Virus record (IMG/VR): IMGVR_UViG_3300020185_000241
Span: 1-25,283 of that record
Strand: one strand, 5' to 3'
Length of the DNA: 25,283 nt
From: a virus
The notes under the pieces were generated by a model. That model ran no database searches and was not told the DNA's origin. It was given only the letters and a program-made list of their open reading frames with translations. The translations under genes were made by a program, and so were the position numbers. How positions within the stretch are numbered: the first letter of the stretch is position 1; each line of letters begins with the position of its first letter. Positions 7,960 through 24,025 of this stretch are shown here, one piece after another.

Positions 7960-9033
7960 TTAAAAGTTTGAGTTTGGAATTGATTGACCTACTGTTTTAG
8001 GATCAGCATCCATACTTGTACCATTCTGACGGTCAAATGATGCACTATCCATTTCATCTACCATTTCTTTTTTAGTATATGACTTCCCACACATCTTCTC
8101 ATACATTTTTTCCATCGTTGCTCTTTTCTTTTCTAAAAGCTTGATTTCTTTTTGCATTTCTTTCATTTTCTTCTTATCTACTAATTCAGATAAATTTTCA
8201 TCTTCTGATACCATAGATAATCTTTCATTTTTAGCTTCAATAGCTTCATCAACACTATCCATTTGGGCTTCCATAGTAACAATTTTACCTGCTTTTTCTA
8301 TTTCTGCTAGTTTTGAATCTAATGTTGGCTTTTTAGCTTTTCTAGCTTTTTTAGGAGCTTTGTCTTCTTCGTTTTCGTTTATAAGATCTAGTAATGAAAT
8401 CATTTTATTTTCTTTTAATTCTAAATATCCGGTTCCTACTTCTCCCTTAGGAAAATCTTTTTTTGTAGGTTCACCATACCCGCTGTTTGCGTTTTGTTTT
8501 ATTTCTTTAGGTACTAATGCTACTGCATCTTCAGTATACCCTGCTTCAACCCCAAACATACCATTTTTAGTATAATAGATTGGGTCTTTAGCTAAATTTT
8601 TTCTTACAATATCTTTAATATCTTCCAAATCTTTTTCAGGTGCTTGTTTAGCTTCAAAATATACACCATTCTGGAATTGGTCAAAAATTAAATTATCTTG
8701 AACATCTTTATCTTCAGTATTATAAGCATGAGATGCATCTTCTTCTACCTCTTTAGATACTTTTTTTTCAACTGCTTTTGCTTCTTCAGCTATAAATGAT
8801 GCAAATGAAGTTTCAAAGCCTTGTTTTGGAGTTGGTTCCATTTTATTGATAGGTTTTAAATCTACATAATGTTCTGAAATTACGCCTTTACTTTTTAAAG
8901 CAGTAGATGCCTCTTCGAAGTTAGCAACGTGCCTAATTTCACTAGGAAACATTGATTTTGCTTCTTTTAAAAAGACATCTTTATGTCCTTTTCCTTCTTT
9001 AATAAGGTTATATTGTGTTTGTAATGTTTTCAT
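7960..9033 (-). CDS. probable prohead core or internal protein with several (L/I)xE sites
   Basis: This 357-residue, Lys/Glu-rich protein is the last of three genes between portal and protease, where T4 has core genes 67 and 68. I recognise it as conserved in marine T4-like phages but know no named function. It begins MKTLQTQYNLIKEGKG, similar in style to the T4 capsid-targeting peptide MKTYQEFIAE. Candidate protease sites follow IKE13, LKE24, ISE54, IAE83 (in FASFIAEE) and INE220. At residues 211-220 MISLLDLINE looks like a second leader inside the protein, followed by a basic then coiled-coil segment (to about 320), suggesting fusion of two leader-bearing proteins. Its start overlaps the upstream stop by 4 bases (ATGA). 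Confidence 0.72.
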   Translation of the reverse strand: MKTLQTQYNLIKEGKGHKDVFLKEAKSMFPSEIRHVANFEEASTALKSKGVISEHYVDLKPINKMEPTPKQGFETSFASFIAEEAKAVEKKVSKEVEEDASHAYNTEDKDVQDNLIFDQFQNGVYFEAKQAPEKDLEDIKDIVRKNLAKDPIYYTKNGMFGVEAGYTEDAVALVPKEIKQNANSGYGEPTKKDFPKGEVGTGYLELKENKMISLLDLINENEEDKAPKKARKAKKPTLDSKLAEIEKAGKIVTMEAQMDSVDEAIEAKNERLSMVSEDENLSELVDKKKMKEMQKEIKLLEKKRATMEKMYEKMCGKSYTKKEMVDEMDSASFDRQNGTSMDADPKTVGQSIPNSNF

Positions 9034-9893
9034 TCTTCTTTATCTTTTAAAATGTCTAATATGTCGTTTAAGTAATCAACAACTAAATCTGTACCATATA
9101 CTACATCATATGATTCTGGGGTTTCTTTATAAAACTCTTCGGTTTCCCGTTTAGCATCGTTTAATAATGGGTTAATTTGACCTAACAAATCTCCTATACG
9201 ATCAAAACCTAACATACGTTCTTGATGAAATTCTTTAGGTGATTGTCCTTCTTCTTCTTTAAATAAATTTTTAACTTCTAATCCAGAACCTTTCTGAACG
9301 TAGTTTCCATTTTTATCTTTAGGTACTAATTTATACTTAAATTGTTTAACATAAGCATTATCTTTAACTCCATCTTCAGATGCTTTAGGGCCTGGGCCTA
9401 AAGTAGCACCAATTCCCTCTTTAACTTCTTTATATCCTAATTCTTTATAAGCTTTATCATTTGGTTTAGATCCTTTTAATCTAAAAGCATATGGGGTTTG
9501 ATACGCACCTGCACCACCTGAAGTTGAAATTTCATCCATTACTTCTTCAGCAACACCCATAGCTTTTCTATATTCTTCAGGGTAATTATTGCGAACGTGA
9601 GTTCGGATTTTATTTCTTAATAATTTAGCATCATTATAAATATCTCTAAATTTAGGATCATCTTCAACTTTAACAGCGACGGATTTTGATGTGTTAGTTA
9701 ATTCATTAGCATCTTTTACTAATTCTCCCACATCTGGGATATAGTCAACATCCCAAGAAATTTTACCAGTTTCTGGGTTTATATTAGTTATAGTTGATTT
9801 TATCCCACCCGAGACTTTAACATCTCCAACTTTTGCACCCTTTATAGCAGGTGGTTGGGGGGCTTCTTTAAGTTTATACTTTAATTTACCCAT
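9030..9893 (-). CDS. probable prohead core or minor head protein
   Basis: This 287-residue protein sits between portal and protease. The N-terminus MGKLKYKLKEAPQPP carries a short basic leader ending in LKE at residues 8-10, a possible protease site. A central glycine-rich segment STSGGAGAYQTPYAFRLKG is flanked by lysine-rich regions, and the C-terminus is helical and acidic. No enzymatic motif or membrane segment is seen. The start overlaps the stop of the upstream gene by 8 bases (ATGGGTAA) and its own stop overlaps the next start by 4, so the three core genes are translated as a coupled set. I infer a core or head role from position. Confidence 0.7.
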   Translation of the reverse strand: MGKLKYKLKEAPQPPAIKGAKVGDVKVSGGIKSTITNINPETGKISWDVDYIPDVGELVKDANELTNTSKSVAVKVEDDPKFRDIYNDAKLLRNKIRTHVRNNYPEEYRKAMGVAEEVMDEISTSGGAGAYQTPYAFRLKGSKPNDKAYKELGYKEVKEGIGATLGPGPKASEDGVKDNAYVKQFKYKLVPKDKNGNYVQKGSGLEVKNLFKEEEGQSPKEFHQERMLGFDRIGDLLGQINPLLNDAKRETEEFYKETPESYDVVYGTDLVVDYLNDILDILKDKEE

Positions 9894-10743
9894 TAGACTT
9901 TTTTAATTCTTCTACTAGTGAATAATATTGTAACAGATTGACTAAATGATCATCATTGATTTTAGTATTTTTACTAGCTTCAACAATTATACTTATAGTT
10001 TCTTTAACTTTAATCTGAACTGTTTTGTCTTTCACATTTTTATTAAGTTCAGTAAGCATTGATTTTATCTCTTTAATTTTAGAATTATAAAATTCTTTCA
10101 GTGCTGGGTTTGAGTCAACAGACTCAATAAATTCTTTAAGTACGGTTTTTTGATTAGAATTTAATTTATCATACTTACCATTAAATTTTTCTAATATTAT
10201 ACGATATGTTAATATACGAAGATCTTTATCATAACCCTTAAATTCTTCTATAAGGTTATCTTCAACCTGTTTTTTGTCTACAGATTGAGAAGTAAGGTGT
10301 TCTAAAAGAGTAACTTTATGGTCTATGATTGTTGTTGGGTTTGTTAACTTACTATTGTTGTAAATTTCCATTAACAAATATAATGAAGCCTGAACTTTAT
10401 AATGTGGGAGTTTTGTTTTAAAAAACTCATCTAAATTATAATGCTTTTTTATTTCATTAATTAAGTTATATTTTTCTCTTTTTAAATAAGATTTATTTAA
10501 CTTTTTAGAAGACTCTAAAACTGTATTAACAATAATATCAGCTTTCCCCTCAGTTAATCCTACCTTTTGAAGGAGGATTTCATAAAGTTTATATTCTTTA
10601 GATAGTTCAGATTTTATGAAATATTTTTTCATAATCCCAGTTGCCGGGGAGTTTTTACCTGATAGAGTATCAGATGTAATTTGTCTAACTAGCAATTCAA
10701 AAAGAATACCTGTATTTTTATATTTTGAATGTTTAATTTTCAT
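9886..10743 (-). CDS. conserved helical protein downstream of the portal gene
   Basis: This 285-residue, lysine-rich, almost wholly helical protein is of unknown function. The N-terminus KYKNTGILFELLVRQITSDT is a hydrophobic-basic helix I associate with T4-like marine phages at this locus. There are no Walker, nuclease or metal motifs and no signal peptide. It is the first gene after the portal, the position of T4 gene 67 (prohead core). Unlike its two neighbours it has no clear (L/I)xE leader near the N-terminus. The start at 10743 is preceded by GAGGG immediately before ATG and by a conserved AATATTTATAAC-type element at 10759-10770. An alternative to a core role is an assembly chaperone. 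Confidence 0.68.
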   Translation of the reverse strand: MKIKHSKYKNTGILFELLVRQITSDTLSGKNSPATGIMKKYFIKSELSKEYKLYEILLQKVGLTEGKADIIVNTVLESSKKLNKSYLKREKYNLINEIKKHYNLDEFFKTKLPHYKVQASLYLLMEIYNNSKLTNPTTIIDHKVTLLEHLTSQSVDKKQVEDNLIEEFKGYDKDLRILTYRIILEKFNGKYDKLNSNQKTVLKEFIESVDSNPALKEFYNSKIKEIKSMLTELNKNVKDKTVQIKVKETISIIVEASKNTKINDDHLVNLLQYYSLVEELKKSNG

Positions 10744-10758
10744 CCCTCAGTAGGTTTT

Positions 10759-10770
10759 GTTATAAATATA
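10759..10770 (-). promoter_or_regulatory. conserved ATATTTATAACAAAA element between portal and next gene
   Basis: Coding-strand sequence TATATTTATAACAAAA, 15 bases before the 10743 ATG and directly after the portal stop. It is the same element as at 3331, 12675 and 15205. Confidence 0.35.
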
Positions 10771-10776
10771 TAAAGA

Positions 10777-12657
10777 TTATTGTTCCTTGATATTGGATTC
10801 ATCAAGTAACGACTCTCCTTTATTATCATTTTCAAATACTAATTTTTTACTGTTAACAGGTACTTTACTTAATAAAGTTTCTAGTGCTAGGGGTGATTTA
10901 CCCTTATAAGAAGATTTAGGTTCGTTTACATCCCGTTTCATCCCCTTAGCACCTAATCTATCTTTACCAAAAGCACTATCTTGTGTATTACGATCAGATA
11001 CCTTTTCTTTAGGACGTCCTAATTTAGGATCAATTGTACCTTGATCATAACCATCTGGAACATTTGTTGGATCTGAATCCATTCTACCTTTACCATATAG
11101 TGAAGCTAAATCATGAGGTGTACCATATGATTTACCAGTTTCAACTGGGTCATTACCTTCGGCTTCTATTTGGTTTAATCTAAATTTACGTTTAGCATCT
11201 TCGCTAATAAGATCTCTATACTCATCATATTCGTTTTCACTAAACCTAAAGATATTATCATAAATCCAATCTGTTGGTAGTAGTTTAGTTTCCATCATTT
11301 GAGCAGCTAAATCTACTTTTTCTTTCATCAATGCTATACGTTCTTGGTCGTATATGATAGATGGGGTAGTTAAACTTAATTCAAAATTTGATAACTGTTC
11401 TCCAGTGTATCCTTGAGTATATAAATGTACGGTTGCTATCTTATATAATTCAGATACTATAATACGTTGAATACGGTCAATTGTGCGACCAAAACGAATA
11501 TCCTCAGCAGCTAGTGTAGCTTTACCTTCTGTAGTTTCATCGTATCCTAAAAATGCTTTAGGTACTTTAAGTGCTGCAAATAATTTATCTCTTAAATATT
11601 CAACATCTGAAATACCATCATAATCTAAGCCTTTAGTAGTATCTATCTTAGTAGCTGAATCATTACCTCTTACAGGGATGAAGAAATCCTCCATCATATT
11701 CTGCATATTATACTTTAAATTATAATCACCGGTTTGTTCATCAATGTAAGGGGCACGTTTCATTTTTGAAACTGTTTTTTCCATAAATGCATCTACTTCA
11801 TTAGGTGGAATACCTCCAACATTAATATAGTAAATACGTTTTTCAGGAGCACGTACTATTCTATGTACTAACATAGCATCTTCCATTAACGCATATTGTT
11901 TATATAATTTACGAGCTGGTTCAATATATGATCTACCATAAGGTAAATAATTGGCATCTGCTAATAAGCGGAAATGAGCCATTTCATAATTATCAAAATA
12001 TATATAATTACCACTATCTTTATCTACACCAACAACACTACCATAGCCCCCATAAGTACCACCAGCACCCTGACCGTTAGGATCATATTGGAATATAATT
12101 TCACTTGGGTTATCAGGATTAGTACCTTCAAGTCTTGATATATTGTAGGCTGTATATGGTATTACATTATAAACACCATACTTTTCTGCTATTTCTAATT
12201 TTAGGAAAAAATCACCATATTTACACATTTGGCGAACCCACATCCATAAATTAAATTCTATATTTAATACATCATAAAATAAGTTATATAATACCTTTTG
12301 AATATCTTCATCACTACTTTTAATACGTAGCACATCACCCATTTCATCTTTTAAAGTACTTTCATCAGCTATAATGTCAAGAGCTGATGCTATAATTGCA
12401 TCAGTATCCATTGCTTCATAATCACCATAAAGCTCAACTCTCATTGTCTGATAGTTGAACGCTATATTATTATATGGATATTGGCTTGTAGTATATAATC
12501 TAGAGAACCTATCAGTTAGTGAATTTGTTTCAAGTTCACCTGCTTGCTGTATTGAATTAGTATCAATTATTTTTAGTTGATTACCCCCTACATTACGAAT
12601 GATAACATCCGTAGAGAATAATCTTTTTAACCTTGTAAATACACTTTTATCAGCCAT
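10777..12657 (-). CDS. portal protein, gp20-like
   Basis: This 626-residue protein would form the dodecameric portal through which DNA is packaged and to which the neck attaches. Recognisable gp20 features are the N-terminal YGDYEAMDTDAIIASALDII block with ADESTLKDE, the RIVRAPEKRIYYINVGGIPP segment, and the crown/stem region PKAFLGYDETTEGKATLAAE with a following RTIDRIQRII helix. It is about 100 residues longer than T4 gp20. The extra length is a low-complexity charged C-terminal tail (from about residue 510) rich in Asp, Gly, Lys and Pro. It starts 27 bases after the terminase stop with no Shine-Dalgarno sequence (AAAATATAAAAATG). Confidence 0.93.
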   Translation of the reverse strand: MADKSVFTRLKRLFSTDVIIRNVGGNQLKIIDTNSIQQAGELETNSLTDRFSRLYTTSQYPYNNIAFNYQTMRVELYGDYEAMDTDAIIASALDIIADESTLKDEMGDVLRIKSSDEDIQKVLYNLFYDVLNIEFNLWMWVRQMCKYGDFFLKLEIAEKYGVYNVIPYTAYNISRLEGTNPDNPSEIIFQYDPNGQGAGGTYGGYGSVVGVDKDSGNYIYFDNYEMAHFRLLADANYLPYGRSYIEPARKLYKQYALMEDAMLVHRIVRAPEKRIYYINVGGIPPNEVDAFMEKTVSKMKRAPYIDEQTGDYNLKYNMQNMMEDFFIPVRGNDSATKIDTTKGLDYDGISDVEYLRDKLFAALKVPKAFLGYDETTEGKATLAAEDIRFGRTIDRIQRIIVSELYKIATVHLYTQGYTGEQLSNFELSLTTPSIIYDQERIALMKEKVDLAAQMMETKLLPTDWIYDNIFRFSENEYDEYRDLISEDAKRKFRLNQIEAEGNDPVETGKSYGTPHDLASLYGKGRMDSDPTNVPDGYDQGTIDPKLGRPKEKVSDRNTQDSAFGKDRLGAKGMKRDVNEPKSSYKGKSPLALETLLSKVPVNSKKLVFENDNKGESLLDESNIKEQ

Positions 12658-12674
12658 TTTTATATTTTATTATT

Positions 12675-12686
12675 GTTATAAATATT
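12675..12686 (-). promoter_or_regulatory. conserved AATATTTATAAC element upstream of the portal gene
   Basis: Coding-strand AATATTTATAACAATAATA, 17 bases before the portal ATG. It overlaps the last bases of the terminase stop codon. One of five matching elements. Confidence 0.35.
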
Positions 12687-14262
12687 ACTTAAGAAGCCAA
12701 CTAATGTCTTCCTTCCCACCATACGGGTTATCTATCTTGAAGGGGTTATCTGCACTATTTCTAGAATAGACCCCTGAGTAAGCAGTTGTTGTTTTATTCA
12801 TTGCATTTAATGATGCCTTTGTTAAATCTATTCCTTGTTGTCTAAATTTAAAAGCCGTATCACGCATGAACATAGCGATAGAGAATGACATAACCAAGTC
12901 ATCATTGTAGCCAATTTGGGCTTCTGCTCTTCCATTTTTCCAAACAAACACTTTCATTTCTTCTACCAATCTTTTTGATTGTATTGTAACCCCTTTATCA
13001 CTAATGTATTCTTGAAATTTACCAATTGCCATTGGTCTTGTTCTTGAAGACATTGTAAATCCTGGAGTCATTCTACTTTTATCACTATAGGCGTCAAAAT
13101 ACGAATCTGATGTTATGTCTCCACTCTTAGGTGAATAGTAAAGATTAGTATAATTTCTATCAATAGCTACTTGAATAGTTGCCCATCCTATGTTTGCGTT
13201 TTCAATTACAAGTAAAGCGTTATTATATTCGGTAGCTATACCTACTAATAAATGGCCATATTCTTTAGTACCTATTTGACCTTTATATTCTGCTACTTGA
13301 ACATTATTATCAACATCTATAACATGAAATGCTGAGTAATCTTTTCCATCACCTCTAGCTACATCAGCTATCACCATATATGTTCTAGAGTAATCTGCAG
13401 GTTCCCAAACCCATAAATTTTTATCTGCTCCTCTTTTTTCAAGTGGATCTTTAATGTAGGTTTGTTCGTAGAAACTTATATATTCTGGGTAGAATACTAT
13501 ATCTCCAGATGTACTAAAATCACAATCACATTCTTGGGCTGCCATTCTAGGATCACCTAATAATTGATCTTGAGAATCTCTCCATGCTTGATCTCGTTCA
13601 GGATGAACAAACCATGGAAGTTTAATAGGTAAAAATTGGTTTTCTGAATTTTCTGCTCTAACCCAAGTTTGATGGAACCAATTACCAGTACCATAAGGAG
13701 TACTTAACGCAATACACCCACCACCAGTAGCTAATGTTTGTTGAGCTGAGGCCCATATTTCACCAATATTATCAATAAAAGCAGCCTCATCAATTAACAA
13801 TAAAGAAACGGCTTCTGATCTACCAGCATCTGAACTTGCTGATGTTGCTTTAATTTGAGAGCCATTATTTAATCTTAATGTTAGTTTATTATTTTCATCT
13901 GCATCTACTTTTAACCAAGAAGGTAAATTTTCATACATAAATTTAACCTTTGTAACCATATTTTTGGCTGTTTCTTGCTTTGTTGCAATACAAAGTATAT
14001 TTTTATCTTTATGGAATAACATTAACCATAAAGAATAACCAGCACCTAAAGTAGATATACCTAACTGTCTAGATTTTAGTACTACAGAATAAGGATTTTC
14101 CTGGAAGAGTTTTAATACTTTTTCTTGAAATGGGTATAAATTAAATTGGATTCTACCTCTTTGAGGGTGTTGAATAAAACAATACTTTTTCATAAAATGA
14201 ACTGGGTCTTGAGCACATTTAAGATATTCTTGTCTTATAATATATTTTAAATCCTCAGCCAT
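12685..14262 (-). CDS. terminase large subunit, gp17-like
   Basis: This 525-residue protein is the packaging motor and DNA-cutting nuclease. The ATPase has a deviant Walker A, KSRQLGIS at residues 63-70, where the lysine sits at the start as in some other terminases rather than before the final Ser. Walker B with catalytic Glu is LLLIDEAAF at 154-162, and the coupling motif ALSTPYGTGNWF is at 185-196. The RNase-H-like nuclease has D300 (VIADVARGDGKDYSAF), E354 (LLVIENANIGW) and D454/D455 (YNDDLVMSF). It is slightly shorter than T4 gp17 (610 residues). The start overlaps the stop of the upstream membrane-protein gene by one base (TAATG). No intein or frameshift is seen. Confidence 0.95.
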   Translation of the reverse strand: MAEDLKYIIRQEYLKCAQDPVHFMKKYCFIQHPQRGRIQFNLYPFQEKVLKLFQENPYSVVLKSRQLGISTLGAGYSLWLMLFHKDKNILCIATKQETAKNMVTKVKFMYENLPSWLKVDADENNKLTLRLNNGSQIKATSASSDAGRSEAVSLLLIDEAAFIDNIGEIWASAQQTLATGGGCIALSTPYGTGNWFHQTWVRAENSENQFLPIKLPWFVHPERDQAWRDSQDQLLGDPRMAAQECDCDFSTSGDIVFYPEYISFYEQTYIKDPLEKRGADKNLWVWEPADYSRTYMVIADVARGDGKDYSAFHVIDVDNNVQVAEYKGQIGTKEYGHLLVGIATEYNNALLVIENANIGWATIQVAIDRNYTNLYYSPKSGDITSDSYFDAYSDKSRMTPGFTMSSRTRPMAIGKFQEYISDKGVTIQSKRLVEEMKVFVWKNGRAEAQIGYNDDLVMSFSIAMFMRDTAFKFRQQGIDLTKASLNAMNKTTTAYSGVYSRNSADNPFKIDNPYGGKEDISWLLK

Positions 14263-14852
14263 TATTTTCCTATTTTCCAGTATATACGGCCTGACATGAT
14301 AGGTTGGAAATCTTGATTAACACCTAACCCAAAACCGTATATTTGTTTATTTTTTGTTTTATATAACAATTCCCCCCCTAAATAATTTAGTTGGTTTGTT
14401 CTTCCTTGTAATCCTAAACCCCCATAAAATTCTCTATTATTAATATAAACTGTGTTAGTTATTGTAGTGGTGGGGATTAATACATTAGGAGTAATTTTTC
14501 TTGATATAATTAAATTTTGAGTTATAGTATCATTTATAATTATATTTCCTATTGAATCTAAATTTAATGTATCGACATATGCGTGGGTTGCATAATAATC
14601 TTTTAAAATATATAGTGTATCTACTATGGTAGGTATAGTGTCATGTATGGTTTCGATTTTAGTTCTCCACTTGGGAACATACACTATACTATCAATTTTT
14701 AACGTATCCCATTTAACTTCGACGTTTGTAATTGTTATTGGGTCTGTTGCTATAGTTTGGTTCCCACTACCCGAGCATGCTCGCATAAATAGAATTATTA
14801 TAACTAATACTACAATGAGTAGATTTTGGATATTTTTAAAGATTTTTTTCAA
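14262..14852 (-). CDS. membrane-anchored protein, possibly envelope or lysis related
   Basis: This 196-residue protein has one hydrophobic segment (LLIVVLVIIILFMRAC, about residues 11-26) followed by a Ser/Gly/Asn linker. The cysteine at 26 gives a weak lipoprotein-like end, but the box (MRAC) is not canonical. The exported part is rich in Thr/Asp/Ile with repeated DTL, DSI and DTI strands. The end GGLGLQGRTNQLNYLGGELL, followed by short aromatic strands, looks like beta-hairpins of an outer-membrane barrel. It may be a spanin-like or other periplasm-spanning lysis protein, or a superinfection factor; I cannot decide. The start overlaps the upstream gene by 17 bases and the stop overlaps the terminase start by one. 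Confidence 0.65.
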   Translation of the reverse strand: MKKIFKNIQNLLIVVLVIIILFMRACSGSGNQTIATDPITITNVEVKWDTLKIDSIVYVPKWRTKIETIHDTIPTIVDTLYILKDYYATHAYVDTLNLDSIGNIIINDTITQNLIISRKITPNVLIPTTTITNTVYINNREFYGGLGLQGRTNQLNYLGGELLYKTKNKQIYGFGLGVNQDFQPIMSGRIYWKIGK

Positions 14853-15189
14853 GTTTTTTCTTTTCAGCTGTAAGGTCTTTTAATTTATCTTTAATTTGAT
14901 CTTTTAAATCACCTTTTGCTTCTTTAAATTCTTTAGCTAAACCTTTCATTTTGGCAACTATTTTTTGTAATTTTTTAGCAGTAGTAGCTACAGAATCTTT
15001 TTTCTTTAAATCTGCTGAGGTTGGTTCACTATCTTCATCTTCAGTTAAACCCACTTCTTTAGATAATGCTAGTGTTTTTTCTAACTCAGTGTTATATTCT
15101 TTTTGAGCATCAACATCCTCTTTAGATACTTCAGATAAAATTTCAACTATTTCGTTTTTAAGGTATTCTTTAAATTCTTTTCTTTTCAT
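14836..15189 (-). CDS. small charged coiled-coil protein with capsid-targeting-like leader
   Basis: This 117-residue protein is mostly Lys, Glu, Asp and Leu. Residues about 60-117 form a long heptad-like helix. The N-terminus MKRKEFKEYLKNEIVEILSE resembles the leaders of the CTS-tagged proteins elsewhere in the window and ends in LSE (18-20), a possible gp21 site. It may be an internal or core protein, or simply a small structural helper. It follows the kinase gene by 27 bases and is preceded by a conserved ATATTTATAACAAAA element (15205-15216). No known family is recognised. Confidence 0.65.
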   Translation of the reverse strand: MKRKEFKEYLKNEIVEILSEVSKEDVDAQKEYNTELEKTLALSKEVGLTEDEDSEPTSADLKKKDSVATTAKKLQKIVAKMKGLAKEFKEAKGDLKDQIKDKLKDLTAEKKKLEKNL

Positions 15190-15204
15190 TTGGGGTGGAT
15201 TTTT

Positions 15205-15216
15205 GTTATAAATATG
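15205..15216 (-). promoter_or_regulatory. conserved ATATTTATAACAAAA element upstream of the 15189 start
   Basis: Coding-strand CATATTTATAACAAAAATCC, 15 bases before the ATG and immediately after the kinase stop. It matches the elements at 3331, 10759 and 12675. Confidence 0.35.
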
Positions 15217-15747
15217 TCAAAGACCAATATAGTTCACCATTTGGTGTATTCTATCTTCTGTACTACCTTCTAATGTATATAACTTTTTAATTCTATGATT
15301 ATACTTAGTTGATAGTTTAACAATCATATTATCAATTGTTTGTCTATATGTAGCATTAGTTTCACGAACGCCATTATCTTCAATTTCTACACCAACAGGT
15401 GATACGTAAAATATATAATCATATTCCCTAACTAAATGAGAAGCTAATGTTTCAAAATCTTCTTTATCATATATATCCATTGAATTTGAACAATTGGCAA
15501 AGGCCATAACATCAATTACAGTACGATCTGTAATAATATTATCCTGCATTAATTCACCTGCTCGTTCAGCTAAAAATACACATTGCCCCTTTAATGTTGA
15601 GTCAGTATTTAATGGTATACCTTGAGCCATAAGTTCTTTAGAACGTTCTGTTCTAAAATTATAACCTTTAAAATAATCTAGCTCCTTAAGTGCATTAACT
15701 AATGTAGTCTTACCTACACTCATTGTACCACATAATCCTATCTTCAT
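15217..15747 (-). CDS. P-loop kinase of the NadR/AAA_28 type
   Basis: This 176-residue single-domain P-loop protein has Walker A GTMSVGKT at residues 7-14, then FRTERSKELMAQGIPLN (substrate-binding loop), and ITDRTVIDVMAFAN at about 96-109, whose DRTxxD is typical of nucleoside- and nicotinamide-riboside-type kinases. A FYVSPVGVEIEDNGVRET segment near the C-terminal half fits the lid of AAA_28/NadR-like enzymes. It could phosphorylate a nucleoside, nicotinamide riboside or another small metabolite in the infected cell; the substrate cannot be read from the sequence. It lies at the downstream end of the metabolic block, 10 bases after the gene before it. Confidence 0.82.
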   Translation of the reverse strand: MKIGLCGTMSVGKTTLVNALKELDYFKGYNFRTERSKELMAQGIPLNTDSTLKGQCVFLAERAGELMQDNIITDRTVIDVMAFANCSNSMDIYDKEDFETLASHLVREYDYIFYVSPVGVEIEDNGVRETNATYRQTIDNMIVKLSTKYNHRIKKLYTLEGSTEDRIHQMVNYIGL

Positions 15748-15757
15748 AACTTATAAT

Positions 15758-16042
15758 TTAATTAGAGAATCTTTCACTTCCAAGCATATATTGAAGAACT
15801 GGTTCAGGAATGCCGGAATGTGTAAATTGTTCTAATTTAGCTAATGCTTGAGTTACATCTTGAGCTATAATAGGAACATTTTTAATATCACCTTTATCAG
15901 CGTATGCACACTCATATATTAGGTTATCTTTTATTTTAGATGTTCCTACTAACTTAATTTCTAGTACAGCAATATCTCTTCCCATATCTTGGATAGATTT
16001 TATTAACTCACTATTTTCTTTTTTATATTTTTTCTTAATCAT
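15758..16042 (-). CDS. small protein of unknown function in the metabolic block
   Basis: This 94-residue protein starts with a basic helix (MIKKKYKKENSELIKSIQDM) and continues with alternating strands (AVLEIKLVGTSKIKDNLIYE) and a helix ending QYMLGSERFSN. No motif is recognised and no membrane segment is present. It fits tightly between the cupin gene (2 bases upstream) and the kinase gene (10 bases downstream), so it is probably translated with them. Confidence 0.6.
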   Translation of the reverse strand: MIKKKYKKENSELIKSIQDMGRDIAVLEIKLVGTSKIKDNLIYECAYADKGDIKNVPIIAQDVTQALAKLEQFTHSGIPEPVLQYMLGSERFSN

Positions 16043-16044
16043 AA

Positions 16045-16455
16045 CTAAAATGGTAAATTATTATAATCATCTTCTTGTGATGAACCCGGCATTACTCTGT
16101 AACTATCACTATCAAAGTGTTGAGTTGATACTTCAAATATAGTAGCTCCCTCTGTGAGAGCCAACATTTGGTGGGGTTGTCCTGGCATTAGGTGAATACA
16201 ATCACCTTCTTCAACTGTCATTTCCTTTTCAGCAGATGTTTCAGTATCAATATACTTATACAAAAATCTACCTTTTGAAATATACCATGCTTCATCCTTT
16301 AATAGATGGAAATGCATTGAAAATGATTTATCTTTTTTAAATACTAATAACTTACCACAATATAGTTCATTATTAATAATCCATAATTCATGACCCCATG
16401 CTTTTTCATAGCGTTTACCTTCATAGGGTTGTGCTTGTAGTGTATGTTCTCTCAT
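16045..16455 (-). CDS. cupin of the mannose-6-phosphate isomerase type
   Basis: This 136-residue single cupin barrel has metal-ligand residues H48, H50 and E55 in SMHFHLLKDEAWYISKG and H95 in LMPGQPHQML, the classic two-motif arrangement. The N-terminal KAWGHELWIIN and the end FEVSTQHFDSDSYRV are typical of type II phosphomannose isomerase C-terminal domains and related sugar-nucleotide cupins. It may convert or bind a phosphorylated sugar, perhaps for virion or host-surface glycan chemistry. No nucleotidyltransferase domain is attached. It lies one base after the upstream small gene and two bases before the next. Confidence 0.85.
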   Translation of the reverse strand: MREHTLQAQPYEGKRYEKAWGHELWIINNELYCGKLLVFKKDKSFSMHFHLLKDEAWYISKGRFLYKYIDTETSAEKEMTVEEGDCIHLMPGQPHQMLALTEGATIFEVSTQHFDSDSYRVMPGSSQEDDYNNLPF

Positions 16456-16456
16456 T

Positions 16457-16729
16457 TTAATTTCTATTTTCCCCTGCTCTACCCATAGCGGTTTTATACC
16501 AAGGTAAACCTTCTCTTTCTTTCATCAATTCTGCATATTCTTCAGAATTATATTCACTACCATTTAAAAAGTATGATTTTACAAATTCACTGTCTTTACG
16601 ATGGGGTTCTATTGCTGGACCTTCCCATCTATGATGTTTCCAATGTTCTTCTCCTGAAAATCTTACTAAATGGTGATGAGCACCTTTATAATTAATAGTT
16701 TTGTACTCATATACTTTTTCTTTAGCCAT
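16457..16729 (-). CDS. small His/Trp-rich protein of unknown function
   Basis: This 90-residue soluble protein has a charged start (MAKEKVYEYKTINYKGAHHH), a central HWKHHRWEGPAIEPHRKDSE and YFLNGSEYNSEEYAELM. The pattern G-P-A followed by YFLNG and SEEY recalls MORN-like beta-hairpin repeats common in phage small proteins, but only about one repeat is present. The cluster of histidines may bind a metal. It follows the FAD-enzyme gene by 27 bases; the gap carries AATATTATAAG, a near match to the conserved leader element. Function unknown. Confidence 0.62.
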   Translation of the reverse strand: MAKEKVYEYKTINYKGAHHHLVRFSGEEHWKHHRWEGPAIEPHRKDSEFVKSYFLNGSEYNSEEYAELMKEREGLPWYKTAMGRAGENRN

Positions 16730-16756
16730 AACTTGTTTTGTTTAATCTTATAATAT

Positions 16757-18109
16757 TTAAAAATGTTCGTGGAAATCTGGGTAATCCTGATTTTGTTCTA
16801 ATATATAATCTGTAACATAAATTCCTTGTGCTCCTGATACTGTAATACCTCTAGCACTTAATGCATCACCTACAAAGTGAACATTTGGGAAATCATTTAA
16901 TGATAAATTTTTATAATTAACCAATGGCTCAGGCGACAAATATTTAACTTCAGGAATATAAACACCCCAATCGTCACCTAATGTTGGAAATACTTTCTTC
17001 ATATCATCAATGAAGTCATCAATATACGAATAATATCCGTGGAAGACACTCCTAACTTCACTCATTTGTTCTTCTGTAATAGATACAGCACTTACATCTT
17101 CACCCTCAGATGTTATAGATGGTGTACGAGTTGGACTATAATATAAACCAGTACCTTCTTTATTTACTTTAGATACTAATTCTCTAGACCAAGCAAATGG
17201 TTCTTCAATACCTGGTATTTCCATTAGTATACCAAAATTGGTCATATTATTCCGGAATGCTTCATCTTTTTTAGCATGTCCATTGTAACTGTGATTCCCA
17301 TACGTTTCTTCAACTGCAACATATGCTGCATTGTTGTTTGTACAGAAAGAACGTAGTGATACTCCTTCATCAAATTTTCTATATAGTTTAAAATCGTAAC
17401 TAATATCAATTAGTTTCTGAAAGTGTTCCTGTGGTGCTTCAAATCTAACACCAATTTGTACTGGTTTTGGTTCAGTTGGTAAGGTATAATCGTCTGCTAA
17501 TTGTTTACCAAAATCAATACCCGATTTACCTACAGCAAATATAAGGCGATCGTATTTGAAAGGGACACATTTTGCAATACTTCGAGTATTGACTTTTTTA
17601 TGATCAATTGTTTGGTTTTTAAAATCAATACCTGTTACTTTTCGTTCCCATTCAAAGTTAACACCATTATCAACTAAGAAATCGTACCAATTTTTACCTA
17701 TTTCATGTAAATAATCTGTACCAACGTGCCATACCGGAAATAATCTTAAACCGAAATATGGTTTAATAAAATCTGGTTCTGCTTGAGGATCTGAACATTG
17801 TACTTCCTCTGGTTTAGGGTGGAAGCGTTTAAAGTTATTGATTACCTCATCAAACAACTCCATTGCTTTATCTTCACCACAATACTTAGACATATGTCCC
17901 CCAATTGAAGTATGATAAGTTAATTTACCATCAGACCAACCACCAGCTCCTAGAAAACCTTCCATTACTTCGGAGTATTTTCTATTATATGGGTCTTTAC
18001 CCATATCAATGATTGTTATATCTTTTCCAGGATAACCACTATCCACAAGTTTAGTTGCAGCATTAACACCTGCTACACCTGCACCTACAATTACTAATTT
18101 TTCTGCCAT
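16757..18109 (-). CDS. FAD-dependent dehydrogenase (COG2509-like)
   Basis: This 450-residue flavoprotein has an N-terminal Rossmann FAD site VGAGVAGVNAA (GxGxxG at 9-14) followed by ITIIDMGKD. The segment EGFLGAGGWSDGKLTYHT matches the GGAGxxSDGKL signature I remember for COG2509 uncharacterised FAD-dependent dehydrogenases. A middle RLIFAVGKSG supplies the second dinucleotide contact, and the end VHFVGDALSARGITVSGAQG is the family's C-terminal FAD-binding GD block. All key elements are intact, so it is probably active. Electron donor and substrate are unknown. It sits between structural genes as an apparent auxiliary metabolic gene, with the cupin and kinase downstream. A long hairpin lies just upstream of its start. 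Confidence 0.88.
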   Translation of the reverse strand: MAEKLVIVGAGVAGVNAATKLVDSGYPGKDITIIDMGKDPYNRKYSEVMEGFLGAGGWSDGKLTYHTSIGGHMSKYCGEDKAMELFDEVINNFKRFHPKPEEVQCSDPQAEPDFIKPYFGLRLFPVWHVGTDYLHEIGKNWYDFLVDNGVNFEWERKVTGIDFKNQTIDHKKVNTRSIAKCVPFKYDRLIFAVGKSGIDFGKQLADDYTLPTEPKPVQIGVRFEAPQEHFQKLIDISYDFKLYRKFDEGVSLRSFCTNNNAAYVAVEETYGNHSYNGHAKKDEAFRNNMTNFGILMEIPGIEEPFAWSRELVSKVNKEGTGLYYSPTRTPSITSEGEDVSAVSITEEQMSEVRSVFHGYYSYIDDFIDDMKKVFPTLGDDWGVYIPEVKYLSPEPLVNYKNLSLNDFPNVHFVGDALSARGITVSGAQGIYVTDYILEQNQDYPDFHEHF

Positions 18110-18228
18110 TTATATTTGATTTTATAGTTTAATATACGAACAAATTGTGACGTCTCCAAATTTGAAGACGCCACAGATGTCATGTTTTTTATTTAAAGCG
18201 ACTGGCTATGAATCAGTCTATAAGTTTT
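18110..18228. other. intergenic region with two hairpins upstream of the FAD enzyme gene
   Basis: This 119-bp gap contains no coding frame. One hairpin is at 18146-18175 (see its own entry). Another weak one pairs gactg (18200-18204) with cagtc (18214-18218). T-rich stretches lie on both sides on the plus strand, but on the coding strand neither hairpin has a clean U-tract. Confidence 0.6.
18146..18175 (-). terminator. 12-bp hairpin between the cupin-like and FAD enzyme genes
   Basis: As minus-strand RNA the arms UGUGGCGUCUUC and GGAGACGUCACA pair over 12 bases (10 Watson-Crick, 2 G-U) around an AAAUUU loop. The two wobbles exist only in RNA of the coding strand; the plus-strand RNA has A-C mismatches there, so the fold seems selected in the transcribed direction. 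The following AUUUGUUCG is only weakly U-rich, so it may be a processing or stabilising hairpin rather than a full terminator. Confidence 0.5.
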
Positions 18229-18486
18229 TTATTTATTTATCTTTAATTTTAATGTGCCTGTTCCTTTAATAACTCGATGCCATTTATGTCTTGGTATAAA
18301 TATACGATCTTTAATTGAGGTAGGCAAGCAATTATCTAATTGAATTTGCCAATCTGTATCTTCTAAAATTTCAACTGTCCTATCTTCATCATCTCGATGC
18401 CACATAAGTTCGATTGGGTCTATATTTTCGTTAAATTCACGAATAATATATTCATCTGTAACCTCTAAATCAATATAGGGTTTCAT
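18229..18486 (-). CDS. small cupin-like protein
   Basis: This 85-residue protein has MWHRDDEDRTVEILE, WQIQLDNCLPTSIKDRIFIP and HKWHRVIKGTGTLKLKI. The WHRD...E...IP...HR(V/I)xxGxGxL pattern is that of small phage cupins I remember from T4-like marine phages, and the histidines near residues 30, 70 and 73 could bind a metal. No enzyme activity can be assigned. Its start overlaps the stop of the upstream fibre-like gene by one base (TAATG), so it belongs to the virion-gene transcript rather than the metabolic block beyond the hairpin. Confidence 0.72.
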   Translation of the reverse strand: MKPYIDLEVTDEYIIREFNENIDPIELMWHRDDEDRTVEILEDTDWQIQLDNCLPTSIKDRIFIPRHKWHRVIKGTGTLKLKINK

Positions 18487-20837: not shown

Positions 20838-21920
20838 TTATATTTTTAATCGGGGTACTAAATCTGAAGGGTTAGCTACTATAATATCATTACCAATAGC
20901 ATCTATAAATAAATCTCCTTCATAATATTTAAAATTACCTTTATTATCTGAGATCATAAATCCATCAAATCCATGTTCTTTGAAATAATCTTGGGCTAAT
21001 TTTTTAGCTAAAGCATATATAAAGTTTTTAGATTCAAATTCGTTATCATTAAAATAAGATTCAAAATTTAAATCTAATTTATTCTTATACCATGAACTTA
21101 TTTCTTTAGACAAATCTTTAGCAAGTTTATTCTTATCTAAACCGGCTTCTAATCCTGCTTGATATAAGGTATTAATTTTATAAGGCCAAGAGGTTCCTTT
21201 AGGTCTAATTAAATTTTTTATAGATTCTTTTTGTTCATTTTCTAAATTAAAAGAATCAATTAATTTTTCCATTTCTTTAATTAAATCATCTGCTTTGCCT
21301 CTTACTACATATTTAGGTGCTACTAGGGCTCCGGTGCTTCCTGTTCTTGATTTTAATTCAATTTCTTTACCATCTATCATTAAATCACCTTTACTTTTGG
21401 CTTTTTCAACATTATTAAAAAATACAGAAAGGAAAGCTTCACCAGGACCTAAAGATACTGTTCCTTGAATTGAATCTTTCATATCATTATATAATGATGT
21501 TAATTCAGAAGAATCAAATCCGGGAATTTGATCAAAGTAATTTGATTTATTTAAATCAAAAGTTGGAGGATTTTCAGCAATTTTAGCAAAGTCTCCAGTT
21601 TTACCTAGATCAGAAAGTAAAGATTGAAAAAATAAAATATCTTTAGTACTTAAATTTTTAGAAGATAAATGAGTTTTCATTTGTTTTCCAAATCCTAAAT
21701 TTTTAGCATATTTAGTAATTTGTTTTAAATCTTCCGGATCAGAAATGTTTCTAATAATACTATCTAAATTATTTCTTAATTCATCTAAATCTATTTCTTC
21801 TTCCTCTTTAATAAGATTATTTACCATTTCAAATAACATAGCCATATCCTCAGGACTATCTGGGTATCCTTTAGGAAATTTATACGCAATCCTATTTAAA
21901 TATTTTGTTATATTATCCAT
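20838..21920 (-). CDS. PD-(D/E)XK nuclease-like protein, start set at the internal MDN
   Basis: I place the start at 21920, giving 360 residues, because MDNITKYLNRI resembles the other leaders here and overlaps the upstream stop by 8 bases (ATGGATAA), as at 9893. A longer frame to 21974 would add 18 residues and overlap the neighbour by 62 bases. In this numbering a nuclease-like core is GPGEAFLSVFF (E161), KGDLMIDGKEIELKS (D179, E188, K190), the spacing of the PD-(D/E)XK superfamily. The remainder is helical and Lys-rich with a C-terminal FKEHGFDGFMISDNKGNFKYY that could be the DNA-recognition part. It is placed beside CTS-tagged genes, so it may be packaged, or it may act in the cell on host or phage DNA. 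Active residues look present. Confidence 0.72.
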   Translation of the reverse strand: MDNITKYLNRIAYKFPKGYPDSPEDMAMLFEMVNNLIKEEEEIDLDELRNNLDSIIRNISDPEDLKQITKYAKNLGFGKQMKTHLSSKNLSTKDILFFQSLLSDLGKTGDFAKIAENPPTFDLNKSNYFDQIPGFDSSELTSLYNDMKDSIQGTVSLGPGEAFLSVFFNNVEKAKSKGDLMIDGKEIELKSRTGSTGALVAPKYVVRGKADDLIKEMEKLIDSFNLENEQKESIKNLIRPKGTSWPYKINTLYQAGLEAGLDKNKLAKDLSKEISSWYKNKLDLNFESYFNDNEFESKNFIYALAKKLAQDYFKEHGFDGFMISDNKGNFKYYEGDLFIDAIGNDIIVANPSDLVPRLKI

Positions 21921-22353
21921 TTTCTTTTCTTTCTTGCCAATCGTAAGATATGCTATCTTCTGTGATAGGCCCACCTTTAGCCCAAGTTCTACAAGTTCTA
22001 GCTGAATGGCATTTAAAATTATGCATCCAACAGTAACCTAATCTACCATCGTCGTCGCTTGTTTTACCAGGCATACATTCATCCATTCTAGGTGAAATAT
22101 CAAAAGCAACACAATTACCACATAGGGATGCTTTTGCTGCTTCTTCTGTTGTGTCCCAATGTTCGGCTAATTCTTTCCAATAATCTCCTGGTTCATCTAC
22201 ATTTAATGGACCATATTTAATATAATCGGCTTTAATTGAAGCATCTCGATTTTTAGTATTTAACTCAAGGTTTTGAGTAGCAGCAGGACAAGCCATTGCT
22301 GCTTCAAATAGCTTATTTTCAGCTAAATATTTTCTTAAATCGAAATTATCCAT
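21913..22353 (-). CDS. CTS-tagged cysteine-rich protein
   Basis: This 146-residue protein begins MDNFDLRKYLAENKLFEAAM, the same leader as the two genes upstream, with possible gp21 sites after LAE12 and LFE17. The body has seven cysteines (22, 78, 81, 93, 108, 115, 121), including CGNC, a GYCW and a KCHSARTC cluster, which suggest an Fe-S or Zn site. LNTKNRDASIKADYIKYGPL and the CWMHNFKCHSARTCRTW region are strongly conserved in marine phages as I remember them, without known function. The gene lies within 11 bases of the polyprotein gene stop, joined by TTTTA repeats. If the leader is removed in the prohead, a metal-binding protein of about 129 residues would be packaged. Confidence 0.8.
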   Translation of the reverse strand: MDNFDLRKYLAENKLFEAAMACPAATQNLELNTKNRDASIKADYIKYGPLNVDEPGDYWKELAEHWDTTEEAAKASLCGNCVAFDISPRMDECMPGKTSDDDGRLGYCWMHNFKCHSARTCRTWAKGGPITEDSISYDWQERKENG

Positions 22354-22367
22354 TTTATTTTATTTTA
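22310..22367. repeat. 58-bp leader cassette copy A (before and at start of the cysteine-rich gene)
   Basis: Covers three TTTTA units (coding strand TAAAA) and the first 15 codons of the gene. It is identical to copy B (23632-23689) at 56 of 58 positions. The upstream gene's stop codon TAA and this gene's ATG lie inside the cassette. Confidence 0.95.
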
Positions 22368-23675
22368 GTTTCTTCTTTTATATGGTGTTAAACTTTTTAT
22401 ATAATCAGTTGGATCAGATATTGATTCTAAATCTGATTCCTTAAAAGAGAATGACATTGCATTTTTTCCCCTGTAGTTTAATTTTGCAACTGAATAAAGG
22501 TATTCACCATCTTTGGTTTCTAAATTTTCAGGTTTATTAATGTAAACATCTTCAATTTGACCAATATATTTATCTCGGTTTTTAGGTTGTACAAAATCAC
22601 CTATTTTAAATTTGGGGGATTGATTTTCTTCAAATAGCTTACCTTCAGATAAACCTATTTTATCAAATTGATCGGAAGTTAGAACATCAAACTCATAATC
22701 TTCAAATCCCCCACCACCATAAAATATACCTGATATTGCCACAGCAATGTCATCTCTTAATTCTTTTGAACTAGCATTTAAAGTTTTTACTGCTTTAACA
22801 TATCTCTTAAAGGTATCCATAGTGTCATCAGGCACATCTTTAAAATCAGCATCAACACCACCAGCATCAATCACACCATCATTTCCTACTTCAACTTCCC
22901 CAGCTGCCCATTCTGACCAATAGTCTTTTAAGTTGTCTTCTTTTAATAGCTTACCTTCCTCAAAATATTCTCTATCCCCATATTCTCCACTAGACATCCA
23001 CATTAAAACAACATCTAAACCATACTTTTTAGTCATATTGTTTAATATAGCTACATCTTGGTCATTGTCATTTAATTGACCCAAAGGAGAATTAGGGTCA
23101 TCTATGTCATATTTATTTTCTTTTAATAGCTTACCTTCAGCTAAACTCTTATACATTTTCATAGCTTCTTCAGCCGATACTTCTTCTTCTTGAAAACTAC
23201 CTTGATCAAAATCTTTAAAATCAACACCCATTTCTAAACGATTATCTTCATCATCGAAATATAATTGATCGAAACCAATTTCATTTTCTTCTCTATCCTC
23301 CGAATTTACTAACTGGTACATATAACCAGTTTTTCCGTTATCATATTCAACGTTAGTAGTATAAAGAGTATATCCTTGTTCTTCGTTTTCTTTTAATAGC
23401 TTATTTTCATCTACATCATGTGATACAATAAACTCACCTACTTTTGCACCTGCTATTACTTTTTTTATTTGAGCTAAATCTGCGTTTTTAAAATCCATCC
23501 CAAATTCTCCTCTATTAGTGAATTTAATACCTTTATCTTTTAAAGCCTGTCTTACTATTTTAGTATCTTCTTTGGCTTTATCACTTGTTCCTTTTCTTAT
23601 GATAGCACCACTATATTTTTCTTCTTTTAAAAGCTTGTTTTCAGCTAAATATTTTCTTAAATCGAAATTGTCCAT
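22365..23675 (-). CDS. CTS-tagged polyprotein-like protein with five leader repeats
   Basis: This 436-residue acidic protein starts MDNFDLRKYLAENKLLKEEK. The second half of this leader recurs inside it: ENKLLKEN ending at E96, EGKLLKEN at E186, EGKLLKED at E246 and EGKLFEEN at E350. Each copy ends in LxE, the T4 gp21 cleavage consensus, and most have a further (L/F)xE just before. Cutting there would give segments of roughly 78, 90, 60, 103 and 87 residues that do not look alike. The last, KFKIGDFVQPKNRDKYIGQI, resembles a small SH3-like barrel; the second is strongly acidic. It looks like five small internal proteins fused head to tail. Cleavage is inference; an alternative is uncut repeats serving as flexible linkers. 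Confidence 0.82.
   Translation of the reverse strand: MDNFDLRKYLAENKLLKEEKYSGAIIRKGTSDKAKEDTKIVRQALKDKGIKFTNRGEFGMDFKNADLAQIKKVIAGAKVGEFIVSHDVDENKLLKENEEQGYTLYTTNVEYDNGKTGYMYQLVNSEDREENEIGFDQLYFDDEDNRLEMGVDFKDFDQGSFQEEEVSAEEAMKMYKSLAEGKLLKENKYDIDDPNSPLGQLNDNDQDVAILNNMTKKYGLDVVLMWMSSGEYGDREYFEEGKLLKEDNLKDYWSEWAAGEVEVGNDGVIDAGGVDADFKDVPDDTMDTFKRYVKAVKTLNASSKELRDDIAVAISGIFYGGGGFEDYEFDVLTSDQFDKIGLSEGKLFEENQSPKFKIGDFVQPKNRDKYIGQIEDVYINKPENLETKDGEYLYSVAKLNYRGKNAMSFSFKESDLESISDPTDYIKSLTPYKRRN
22626..23403 (-). repeat. four internal leader repeats in the polyprotein gene
   Basis: Junction codons lie at 23388-23402, 23118-23132, 22938-22952 and 22626-22640. The first three contain an identical 16-base plus-strand sequence ttcttttaatagctta; two of them share 21 bases. 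The fourth shares 14 bases (cttcaaatagctta, 22628-22641) with the leader of the next gene (22302-22315). The DNA-level identity points to recent or conserved copying of the leader. Confidence 0.9.
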
Positions 23676-23692: not shown

Positions 23693-24025
23693 TTATTGTT
23701 CTGGTATAATAAATGAGCCTATGATATCATCTTCTTTTCTTTTAAAAGTTACTTTTCCATATTCTGGTATTTGTAAAGAAATTGGTGAAGTTGTAAGAGC
23801 TTGAAGTGTTGCTCTAAATTGATCAGCATTATCATAATTTTCAGAATCTCCATATTCCTCTCCATCCAATACTAGTGTTTCAATATCACCAGGGGCACCT
23901 TCAAAAGTATCACCTCCCTCAAGGTACATTTGGAAGGCATTTTTAAGGTATTCTACAGCGACAGAATTTTCTTCTTTAAATAGCCTACCTTCAGCTAAAT
24001 ATTTTTTTAAATCAAAGTTGTTCAT
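23693..24025 (-). CDS. CTS-tagged small acidic protein
   Basis: This 110-residue protein begins MNNFDLKKYLAEGRLFKEEN, a diverged copy of the leader in the next two genes, with a possible cleavage after LAE12 (the second LxE is changed to FKE). The body (VEYLKNAFQMYLEGGDTFEG, PEYGKVTFKRKEDDIIGSFI) is small, acidic and mixed helix-strand; no family is recognised. It would be a single-domain member of the packaged set, comparable in size to one segment of the polyprotein. It follows a long TTTTA tract and precedes the polyprotein gene by 17 bases. Confidence 0.75.
   Translation of the reverse strand: MNNFDLKKYLAEGRLFKEENSVAVEYLKNAFQMYLEGGDTFEGAPGDIETLVLDGEEYGDSENYDNADQFRATLQALTTSPISLQIPEYGKVTFKRKEDDIIGSFIIPEQ

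Follow-up and report, generated by a model that had tools for sequence, protein, structure and literature searches.

A kissing-loop RNA and candidate switch ahead of a conserved oxidoreductase–kinase cassette in uncultured T4-like phages

Introduction

Why do some T4-like phages keep a flavoenzyme and a kinase directly ahead of their packaging genes, and what stands at the entrance to this arrangement? The question is raised by an IMG/VR virus record of 25,283 bases (IMGVR_UViG_3300020185_000241), the whole of which is called the window here and supplies all coordinates not otherwise assigned. An earlier note on this DNA had singled out five genes at 15217..18109 as a metabolic block: a flavin adenine dinucleotide (FAD)-dependent oxidoreductase, a cupin, a kinase and two small proteins. 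All five open reading frames (ORFs) are present, on the minus strand and at the coordinates given, and the neighbourhood is as the note described it, with fibre-like and internal-protein-like or head-protein genes upstream of the FAD gene and T4-type terminase, portal, protease and head genes on the other side. That interval ends short of an upstream RNA at 18218-18164, in which two hairpin loops pair with each other. Here I describe this kissing-loop RNA and the enzyme cassette that follows it in a lineage of hundreds of uncultured, mostly marine T4-like contigs related to Flavobacterium phage immuto, and weigh whether the RNA acts as a regulatory switch.

Results

The RNA was noticed during a search for promoters, as a strikingly conserved stretch before the FAD gene. 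Its core is 55 nucleotides (nt) long (18164..18218, minus strand; covariance model match of 72.4 bits) and consists of two hairpins with near-invariant 9-nt loops and an A/T-rich spacer between them. P1, on the minus strand like the rest of the element, is a stem of 5 base pairs (bp; 18218-18214/18204-18200) with the loop ATTCATAGC (18213-18205), and P2 is a stem of 3 bp (18181-18179/18169-18167) with the loop ATCTGTGGC (18178-18170), for which the consensus is A(G/T)CTGTGGC. CATAGC in loop 1 is complementary to GCTGTG in loop 2, and the resulting kissing helix has five pairs in the window (18210-18206 with 18176-18172).

Both stems covary. Of 193 loci, 146 have the exact loop 1 within 200 nt of the FAD gene, a number that rises to 161 when the distance is extended to 2.5 kb; the other 32 comprise 18 with loop variants and 14 without a recognisable element. 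Some loci in the different sets used here share contigs and were left unmerged, apart from four removals by hand and filters for distinct sequences applied to the RNA, so that counts of loci are not counts of independent events. Among 190 distinct loop-1 sites all five P1 pairs are kept in 177, by more than 30 different stems. In an alignment of 55 sequences (A8) P1 is 100% paired, with two-sided changes at 5/5 pairs, and P2 is 98.2% paired (96.7-98.2% across alignments), with two-sided changes at 3/3 pairs; RNAalifold predicts the same eight pairs.

Most sequences leave the kissing interaction unproven because both loops are invariant in them, and it is the variants that carry the proof. Natural variants are compensated: CATATC with GATGTG, CATAAC with GTTGTG, CATTAC or CATTGC with GTAGTG, and TATAGC with CTGTAA. 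Once such variants are added (A9, 51 sequences), the kissing helix is 94.4% paired with two-sided changes at three of six pairs, five whole-structure measures lie above all 500 shuffles (0/500 reach any of them), and moving the partner by 1-3 columns destroys the pairing. A test was also set beforehand, in which all viral contigs were scanned for the compensated combination TATC/GATG and for two uncompensated ones. The compensated combination gave 33 matches, 28 of them with a full P1 and at least two P2 pairs by a script criterion; two more proved real on reading (full P1, shifted P2, FAD gene downstream), making 30 real elements, and the FAD gene lies downstream in 26 cases while the contig ends in 4. 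The uncompensated combinations gave 3 and 5 matches, none of these eight being a real element or having the FAD gene downstream. Conservation in the loops extends beyond the kissing helix: the remaining positions, TT of loop 1 and A and GC of loop 2, vary hardly or not at all, which suggests a putative binding site. On the strength of this covariation, the kissing-loop RNA is firmly established as a structure.

The element is attached to one gene. A motif scan that made no use of the FAD gene gave at least 116 matches that were read, its counts being lower bounds; among those listed, the FAD gene lies downstream in 113 of 116, while two run into a contig end and one is a chance match inside coding sequence. 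A relaxed set comprises 208 elements; the FAD gene starts no more than 130 nt away in 185 of them and no more than 3.5 kb away in 207, and the more distant cases mostly result from inserted genes, for example for GIY-YIG-like (by eye) or Pyr_excise proteins. The genes upstream vary (48 clusters for 147 elements) whereas the FAD gene downstream is constant, and the distance from the upstream stop codon to P1 has a median of 11 nt over the same 147 elements. In the window this upstream neighbour, common among relatives without being constant, encodes an 85-amino-acid protein (18229..18486, minus strand) whose stop codon lies about 10 nt before P1. One contig, L359, carries a second, variant copy of the RNA (6452-6507, plus strand) 1.5 kb upstream of the FAD gene, ahead of a protein resembling relatives of Pyr_excise and a GIY-YIG-like gene (by eye), with the usual copy at 7888.

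With the covariance model, single copies were detected in the window and in each of two contigs of 112 kb and 131 kb, in all three at the FAD gene. Of seven further long relatives three match, L362 holds a variant that the model misses, and three (G013, G014 and G019) have no element. No element was found by the model in the whole genomes of immuto, Microcystis phage Mel-JY01, four cyanophages, two Campylobacter phages and Karimac. In 395 Bacteroidota genomes I obtained six weak matches (23.5-32.4 bits), which I judge to be chance; four were aligned, and of these the best has no second loop and three deviate from the consensus. Rfam release 15 has no match to the window element up to E 5, and in the elements of seven relatives it returns only L20_leader, at 26.9 bits against a gathering threshold of 58.7. 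Elsewhere in the lineage, contig L377 has a SAM-II riboswitch-like match (1527-1583, plus strand; 38.9 bits against a gathering threshold of 44, E 7.5e-4).

Overlapping the second hairpin, the window has a terminator-like hairpin (18146..18175, minus strand) of 13 bp with the loop AATT, followed by ATTTGTT, and its 5' arm includes part of loop 2. The T-tract is weak in the window and stronger in most relatives. By itself the window strand folds as P1 plus terminator at -27.6 kcal/mol (z -5.13), and five relatives give z values of -4.6 to -7.0. Of 204 elements, 181 have a hairpin (6-13 bp, then a T-run) whose start lies within or before loop 2, so that the kissing form and the terminator would be mutually exclusive. 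The same region holds a promoter-like site (18131..18160, minus strand), made up of TTTGG at 18160-18156, inside the terminator hairpin, and TTCGTATATT at 18140-18131; the spacing TTGG, about 18 nt, TYGTATATT recurs, by eye, before several genes of the long relatives G001 and G009. A T4 late promoter, TATAAATA, was rejected as a candidate before the FAD gene: of 137 upstream regions 8 contain it exactly, where shuffled sequences give 5.1, and the window shows no more than chance.

Which genes does this RNA precede? When viral contigs were searched for relatives of the FAD protein, at least 597 came up, of which the best 80 were kept, and gene order was counted in 118 loci holding both FAD and terminase genes, chosen by similarity to the FAD protein or the cupin after four repeated loci had been removed by hand. 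Between the FAD gene (16757..18109; 450 amino acids) and the terminase, the kinase (15217..15747; 176 amino acids) is present in 118/118 loci, a small protein of unknown function, u90 (16457..16729), in 112, the cupin (16045..16455) in 87 and u94, also of unknown function (15758..16042), in 23; all are on the minus strand in the window. When loci are selected through the kinase, FAD lies upstream in 39/39 and terminase downstream in 63/63, and of 65 diverged FAD relatives, which share 62-78% identity with the window protein, 62 have the kinase within 3.5 kb. Because the same order before terminase is seen in all 118 loci, the pairing of FAD and kinase is not chance. Judged by gene order, FAD–u90–kinase upstream of terminase is the constant core and a real conserved unit, with the cupin optional and u94 rare. 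The worry, raised in the earlier note, that the block might never recur elsewhere can thus be set aside for FAD and kinase; all five genes are found together in only 23 of the 118 loci, and the trio of FAD enzyme, cupin and kinase fails as a unit, the cupin being absent from 31/118 loci and from most of the more diverged ones.

Among cultured phages the nearest terminases are those of Flavobacterium phage immuto (61% identical, four records) and Mel-JY01 (54%), and u90 has no match. Immuto has relatives of the kinase (about 28% identical) and of the 85-amino-acid upstream protein; no FAD gene was found in it, and its kinase relative lies in a deazaguanine cluster (DpdA/QueE/FolE/QueF). Contig L151 (2394-7036, minus strand) carries QueC-, QueD- and radical-SAM (QueE-like) genes with a protein 38% identical to immuto DpdA, probably for 7-deazaguanine DNA modification.

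The note's family assignment for the FAD protein is borne out. It matches Pfam Pyr_redox_2 (6e-8) and PHROG 12409, and the sequence profile of its family finds VP0956 of Vibrio parahaemolyticus (PDB 3NLC) with E 3.4e-27. Its AlphaFold2 model (predicted local distance difference test, pLDDT, 88.8) matches 3NLC with E 1e-20 in Foldseek and with Z 32.9 over 386 residues at 2.7 A by VIA, the next best fold reaching Z 19.0; a fold missing from the VIA-align list is not counted as excluded. Fold over the whole length and sequence profile are thus shared with the VP0956-type family, which I take to be COG2509. The GxGxxG and C-terminal GD motifs are present (across 46 sequences G9, G11, G414 and D415 never vary, and G14 is kept in at least 90%), and bacterial members have in common with the phage protein the invariant glycines, C256, E387, K389 and G414-D415. 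The two differ in that identity is only about 27%, the phage protein lacks a Cys-rich insert found in most sampled bacterial relatives, and the phage proteins form one deep clade far from 30 bacterial relatives (support 99). The gene is under purifying selection, with a ratio of nonsynonymous to synonymous change (dN/dS) of 0.12-0.16 against relatives. Profiles of kinase, cupin and u90 found nothing near bacterial FAD relatives (0/80 loci, plus-strand ORFs only), no constant bacterial partner gene was seen in the 10 of these 80 loci whose neighbours were read, and the open-access literature yielded nothing related on COG2509. Among cultured phages only Campylobacter phages have a relative (37 records), the Fletchervirus 'NAD(FAD)-utilizing dehydrogenase', also of PHROG 12409, which is 23% identical to the window protein and has dUTPase and endolysin genes as neighbours; I did not find the kissing-loop RNA in Fletchervirus phage NCTC12673, nor a function for this dehydrogenase in the open-access Fletchervirus literature. 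The other ten matches, labelled human gut phage, are unannotated faecal contigs and were dropped as phage evidence, since the three that were read all carry bacterial genes.

The kinase is likewise of the family that the note had named, matching Pfam AAA_28 at 4e-13 (50.3 bits against a gathering threshold of 27), and G7, G12 and K13 of Walker A are invariant, as are R75, R128 and R135. Its model (pLDDT 90.7) resembles, by VIA, the NadR kinase domain (Z 16.5), Mycoplasma mycoides deoxynucleoside kinase (16.4), dCK (15.9) and thymidylate kinase (15.4). Because these scores tie or nearly tie, I label it nucleoside-kinase-like, and such an enzyme is what the model predicts. The top sequence-profile match is deoxynucleoside kinase 2JAQ (E 1.6e-5; Pfam dNK 0.059), and with 176 residues the protein is a kinase domain only, the nicotinamide mononucleotide (NMN) adenylyltransferase domain of NadR being missing. 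It too is under purifying selection (dN/dS 0.11-0.18).

The cupin agrees with the isomerase type proposed for it, with Pfam Lyx_isomer at 1.8e-7 (31.1 bits against a cut-off of 20.8), Cupin_2 at 5e-7 and a profile match to D-lyxose isomerase 2Y0O (E 9e-4); the WbuC model gives 27.3 bits, below its cut-off of 42. The metal ligands HxH...E...H are kept (H48, H50, E55 and H95, invariant in 19 sequences), dN/dS is 0.06-0.22, and by sequence the protein is of the sugar-isomerase type. A census of the slot that separates u90 from the kinase covered 195 loci in which FAD precedes the kinase: the window-type cupin occupies it in 135 and a MannoseP_isomer cupin in 10 (Pfam 3.1e-30 for one), never both (0/195). 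Other occupants are an FkbM-type methyltransferase (10/195), a nucleotidyltransferase whose nearest models are the heptose-type RfaE domain II and TagD (5/195), a DUF6884 protein (5/195), a glycosyltransferase-like protein named by eye and without a Pfam match (4/195), and, in one locus each, a 2OG-Fe oxygenase and a protein weakly matching pyruvyltransferase; in 37/195 neither a cupin nor another gene was found. In L008 and L013 the order is FAD–u90–isomerase cupin–nucleotidyltransferase–kinase. Relatives of the cupin in the cyanophages S-SM2, Bellamy, P-SSM2 and P-TIM68 sit among heptose and nucleotide-sugar genes. Two long relatives have glycosyltransferases, which in G001 (Pfam for two of them) lie, by eye, among collagen-like fibre genes, and in the 112-kb relative glycosyltransferases and an oxygenase lie among genes for collagen-like fibres, again named by eye. 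L318, a 131-kb phage contig, encodes WecB-, NeuB- and KdsB-like proteins with epimerases (8117-15407, plus strand), possibly for nonulosonic acid synthesis. Slot contents, cyanophage context and these long relatives thus favour sugar chemistry for the slot, as distinct from the core. L155 (17626-19977, minus strand) and L156 (352-1149, minus strand) have in their late region a large protein with a CTP_transf_like stretch near a Zeta_toxin-type kinase.

The remaining genes place the window among T4-like phages, since T4-type terminase, portal, prohead protease and major head protein are all present. On the 3' side of the kinase the order is u117 (14836..15189), a charged helical protein between kinase and terminase in 97/118 loci; u196 (14262..14852; 79/118 loci), with an N-terminal hydrophobic segment and a lysis or envelope role guessed by eye; the large terminase of T4 gp17 type (12685..14262; PHROG 2, E 1.7e-51), the next fixed gene downstream; and then portal, prohead protease, major head protein and PhoH, the three with coordinates given here being on the minus strand. 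A strong terminator, AAGCCTCGCGAAAGCGAGGC followed by nine T, stands directly after the major head protein gene (4352-4324, minus strand). Three otherwise different minus-strand proteins, g23.7 (23693-24025), g22.4 (22365-23675) and g21.9 (21913-22353), have in common an N-terminus, MDNFDLKKYLAEGRL/NKL, that also occurs in five proteins of L155 and resembles a capsid-targeting tag. The capsid-targeting tag of T4 is cleaved in head maturation.

Discussion

What might the RNA do? The best explanation of the locus, which I hold with moderate confidence, is that a conserved enzyme cassette heads the terminase and head cluster and is guarded by a conditional-terminator RNA. Transcripts from the upstream fibre and internal-protein genes would reach the RNA; if a small molecule or protein held the kissing form, the terminator would not form and transcription would run on into FAD, kinase and terminase, and if not, transcription would stop and the promoter overlapping the terminator would serve the operon alone. 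The RNA as a regulatory switch, be it conditional terminator or riboswitch candidate, is a good hypothesis. Of the features expected of a riboswitch, a covarying structured RNA is present, as is, on sequence evidence only, an expression platform that excludes its fold; as for a leader position, the element stands constantly before FAD, yet the promoter-like site is 3' of it. More tentative, and to my mind short of probable, is the proposal of a new phage riboswitch class, in which the kissing hairpins would bind a metabolite linked to the FAD enzyme and kinase, block the terminator and couple entry into the terminase and head genes to the metabolic state of the infected cell.

Several observations weigh against a switch. 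The RNA is dispensable, as the 14 of 193 FAD loci without a recognisable element and the three whole FAD-bearing records of 111-180 kb that lack it (G013, G014, G019) indicate, and a recognisable terminator is missing in 23 of 204 elements. The terminator is far more stable than P1 plus P2, so that a bound factor must be assumed. A messenger RNA starting at the promoter-like site, 3' of the RNA, would be without the element, and because this site overlaps or follows the terminator, transcription of FAD may also bypass the RNA; what the element governs may then be only read-through from upstream genes, or it may do no more than end the upstream transcript. An element acting constitutively at the 3' end of that transcript, serving termination or protection of the messenger, with loops kept for a protein that binds tandem hairpins, would account for the short distance to the upstream stop codon (median 11 nt), for the terminator that follows in 181/204 and for the promoter-like site of the next operon behind it. 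It would leave unexplained why 48 clusters of upstream genes contrast with one constant downstream operon, even where genes have been inserted between; nor does simple termination call for a covarying kissing helix that has the terminator arm for a partner. I regard this alternative as somewhat doubtful, and the conditional terminator as the reading to carry forward.

What the cassette makes is a separate matter. The FAD enzyme and kinase may be steps of a single pathway whose substrate, a nucleoside or an activated sugar, is needed late in infection, with the slot genes adapting its sugar part; this is a weaker part of the proposal, and the FAD–u90–kinase core is commonly found without any sugar gene, so that sugar chemistry is not needed for the core. 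Another reading, possible if less than probable, has the block supply an activated sugar with which virion fibres or host glycans are glycosylated. It would fit the heptose and nucleotide-sugar clusters around the cupin relatives of the four cyanophages, the slot genes (mannose-6-phosphate-isomerase cupin, heptose-type nucleotidyltransferase, FkbM methyltransferase, the by-eye glycosyltransferase and the pyruvyltransferase-like protein) and the glycosyltransferases of the two long relatives; the 37/195 loci with an empty slot and a kinase resembling nucleoside rather than sugar kinases do not fit. The kinase speaks instead for DNA or nucleotide modification, in which it would phosphorylate an unusual deoxynucleoside and the FAD enzyme would oxidise or reduce that deoxynucleoside: the kinase fold ties with deoxynucleoside kinases, 2JAQ is the best profile match of the kinase, its immuto homologue lies among deazaguanine genes, and genes of QueC/QueD type occur together with a relative of immuto DpdA in one 112-kb relative. 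A DpdA relative is present, however, in only one of eight long contigs with the cassette, in that 112-kb contig the cassette stands among late genes away from the deazaguanine genes, and the slot is filled mostly by sugar rather than base-modification genes, all of which makes this reading rather unlikely.

The sugar- or cofactor-modifying pathway suggested in the earlier note therefore divides: its sugar half gains indirect support from slot genes and cyanophage context, and its cofactor half, concerning nicotinamide adenine dinucleotide (NAD), gains none beyond the NadR fold tie. In NadR the nucleotidyltransferase domain precedes the kinase domain, and a few loci do have a nucleotidyltransferase immediately before the kinase, in that same order; together with AAA_28 and the NadR kinase domain among the best structural matches, this is what speaks for salvage of NAD by a NadR-like nicotinamide riboside kinase against NAD-depleting defences. 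This nucleotidyltransferase fits RfaE domain II and TagD better than NadR/NMNAT models and is absent from most loci, and NAD salvage has no role for the FAD enzyme, so that I consider it highly improbable. Much the same holds for a chance cargo island of unrelated genes, already disfavoured, to which only the variable slot points; FAD, u90 and kinase keep their order and purifying selection across lineages 62-91% identical.

The nearest precedents in kind, by analogy, are the manA and wcaG motifs of marine T4-like cyanophages, presented by Weinberg et al. (2010; PMC2864571) as orphan riboswitch candidates near carbohydrate genes. Their structures differ from the kissing-loop RNA, and the Rfam scan made here, which included both families, was negative. 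A glutamine riboswitch of Methylophilales phage Melnitz is likewise encoded by a marine phage; it belongs to a different RNA family and a different gene, that of transfer-messenger RNA (tmRNA) (PMC9004378). The type II mannose-6-phosphate isomerase of cyanophage S-SCSM1 is of the cupin kind that replaces the window cupin in 10 relatives; there it is described as a single auxiliary gene (PMC9602691), whereas here it lies inside the FAD–kinase cassette. Searches of open-access journal papers turned up neither this RNA nor the FAD–kinase cassette.

Conclusions

The minimal core shows which genes of the earlier grouping belong together, and the RNA before it is found in hundreds of uncultured phages, at the entrance to their packaging and head genes. 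Phage riboswitches are few, and this RNA, if it is a switch, would be one without an Rfam match that covaries even in its tertiary loop-loop contact. Its ligand, if there is one, may point to the substrate of the uncharacterised COG2509 oxidoreductases, and the element would offer a handle on the timing of late genes in uncultured T4-like phages.

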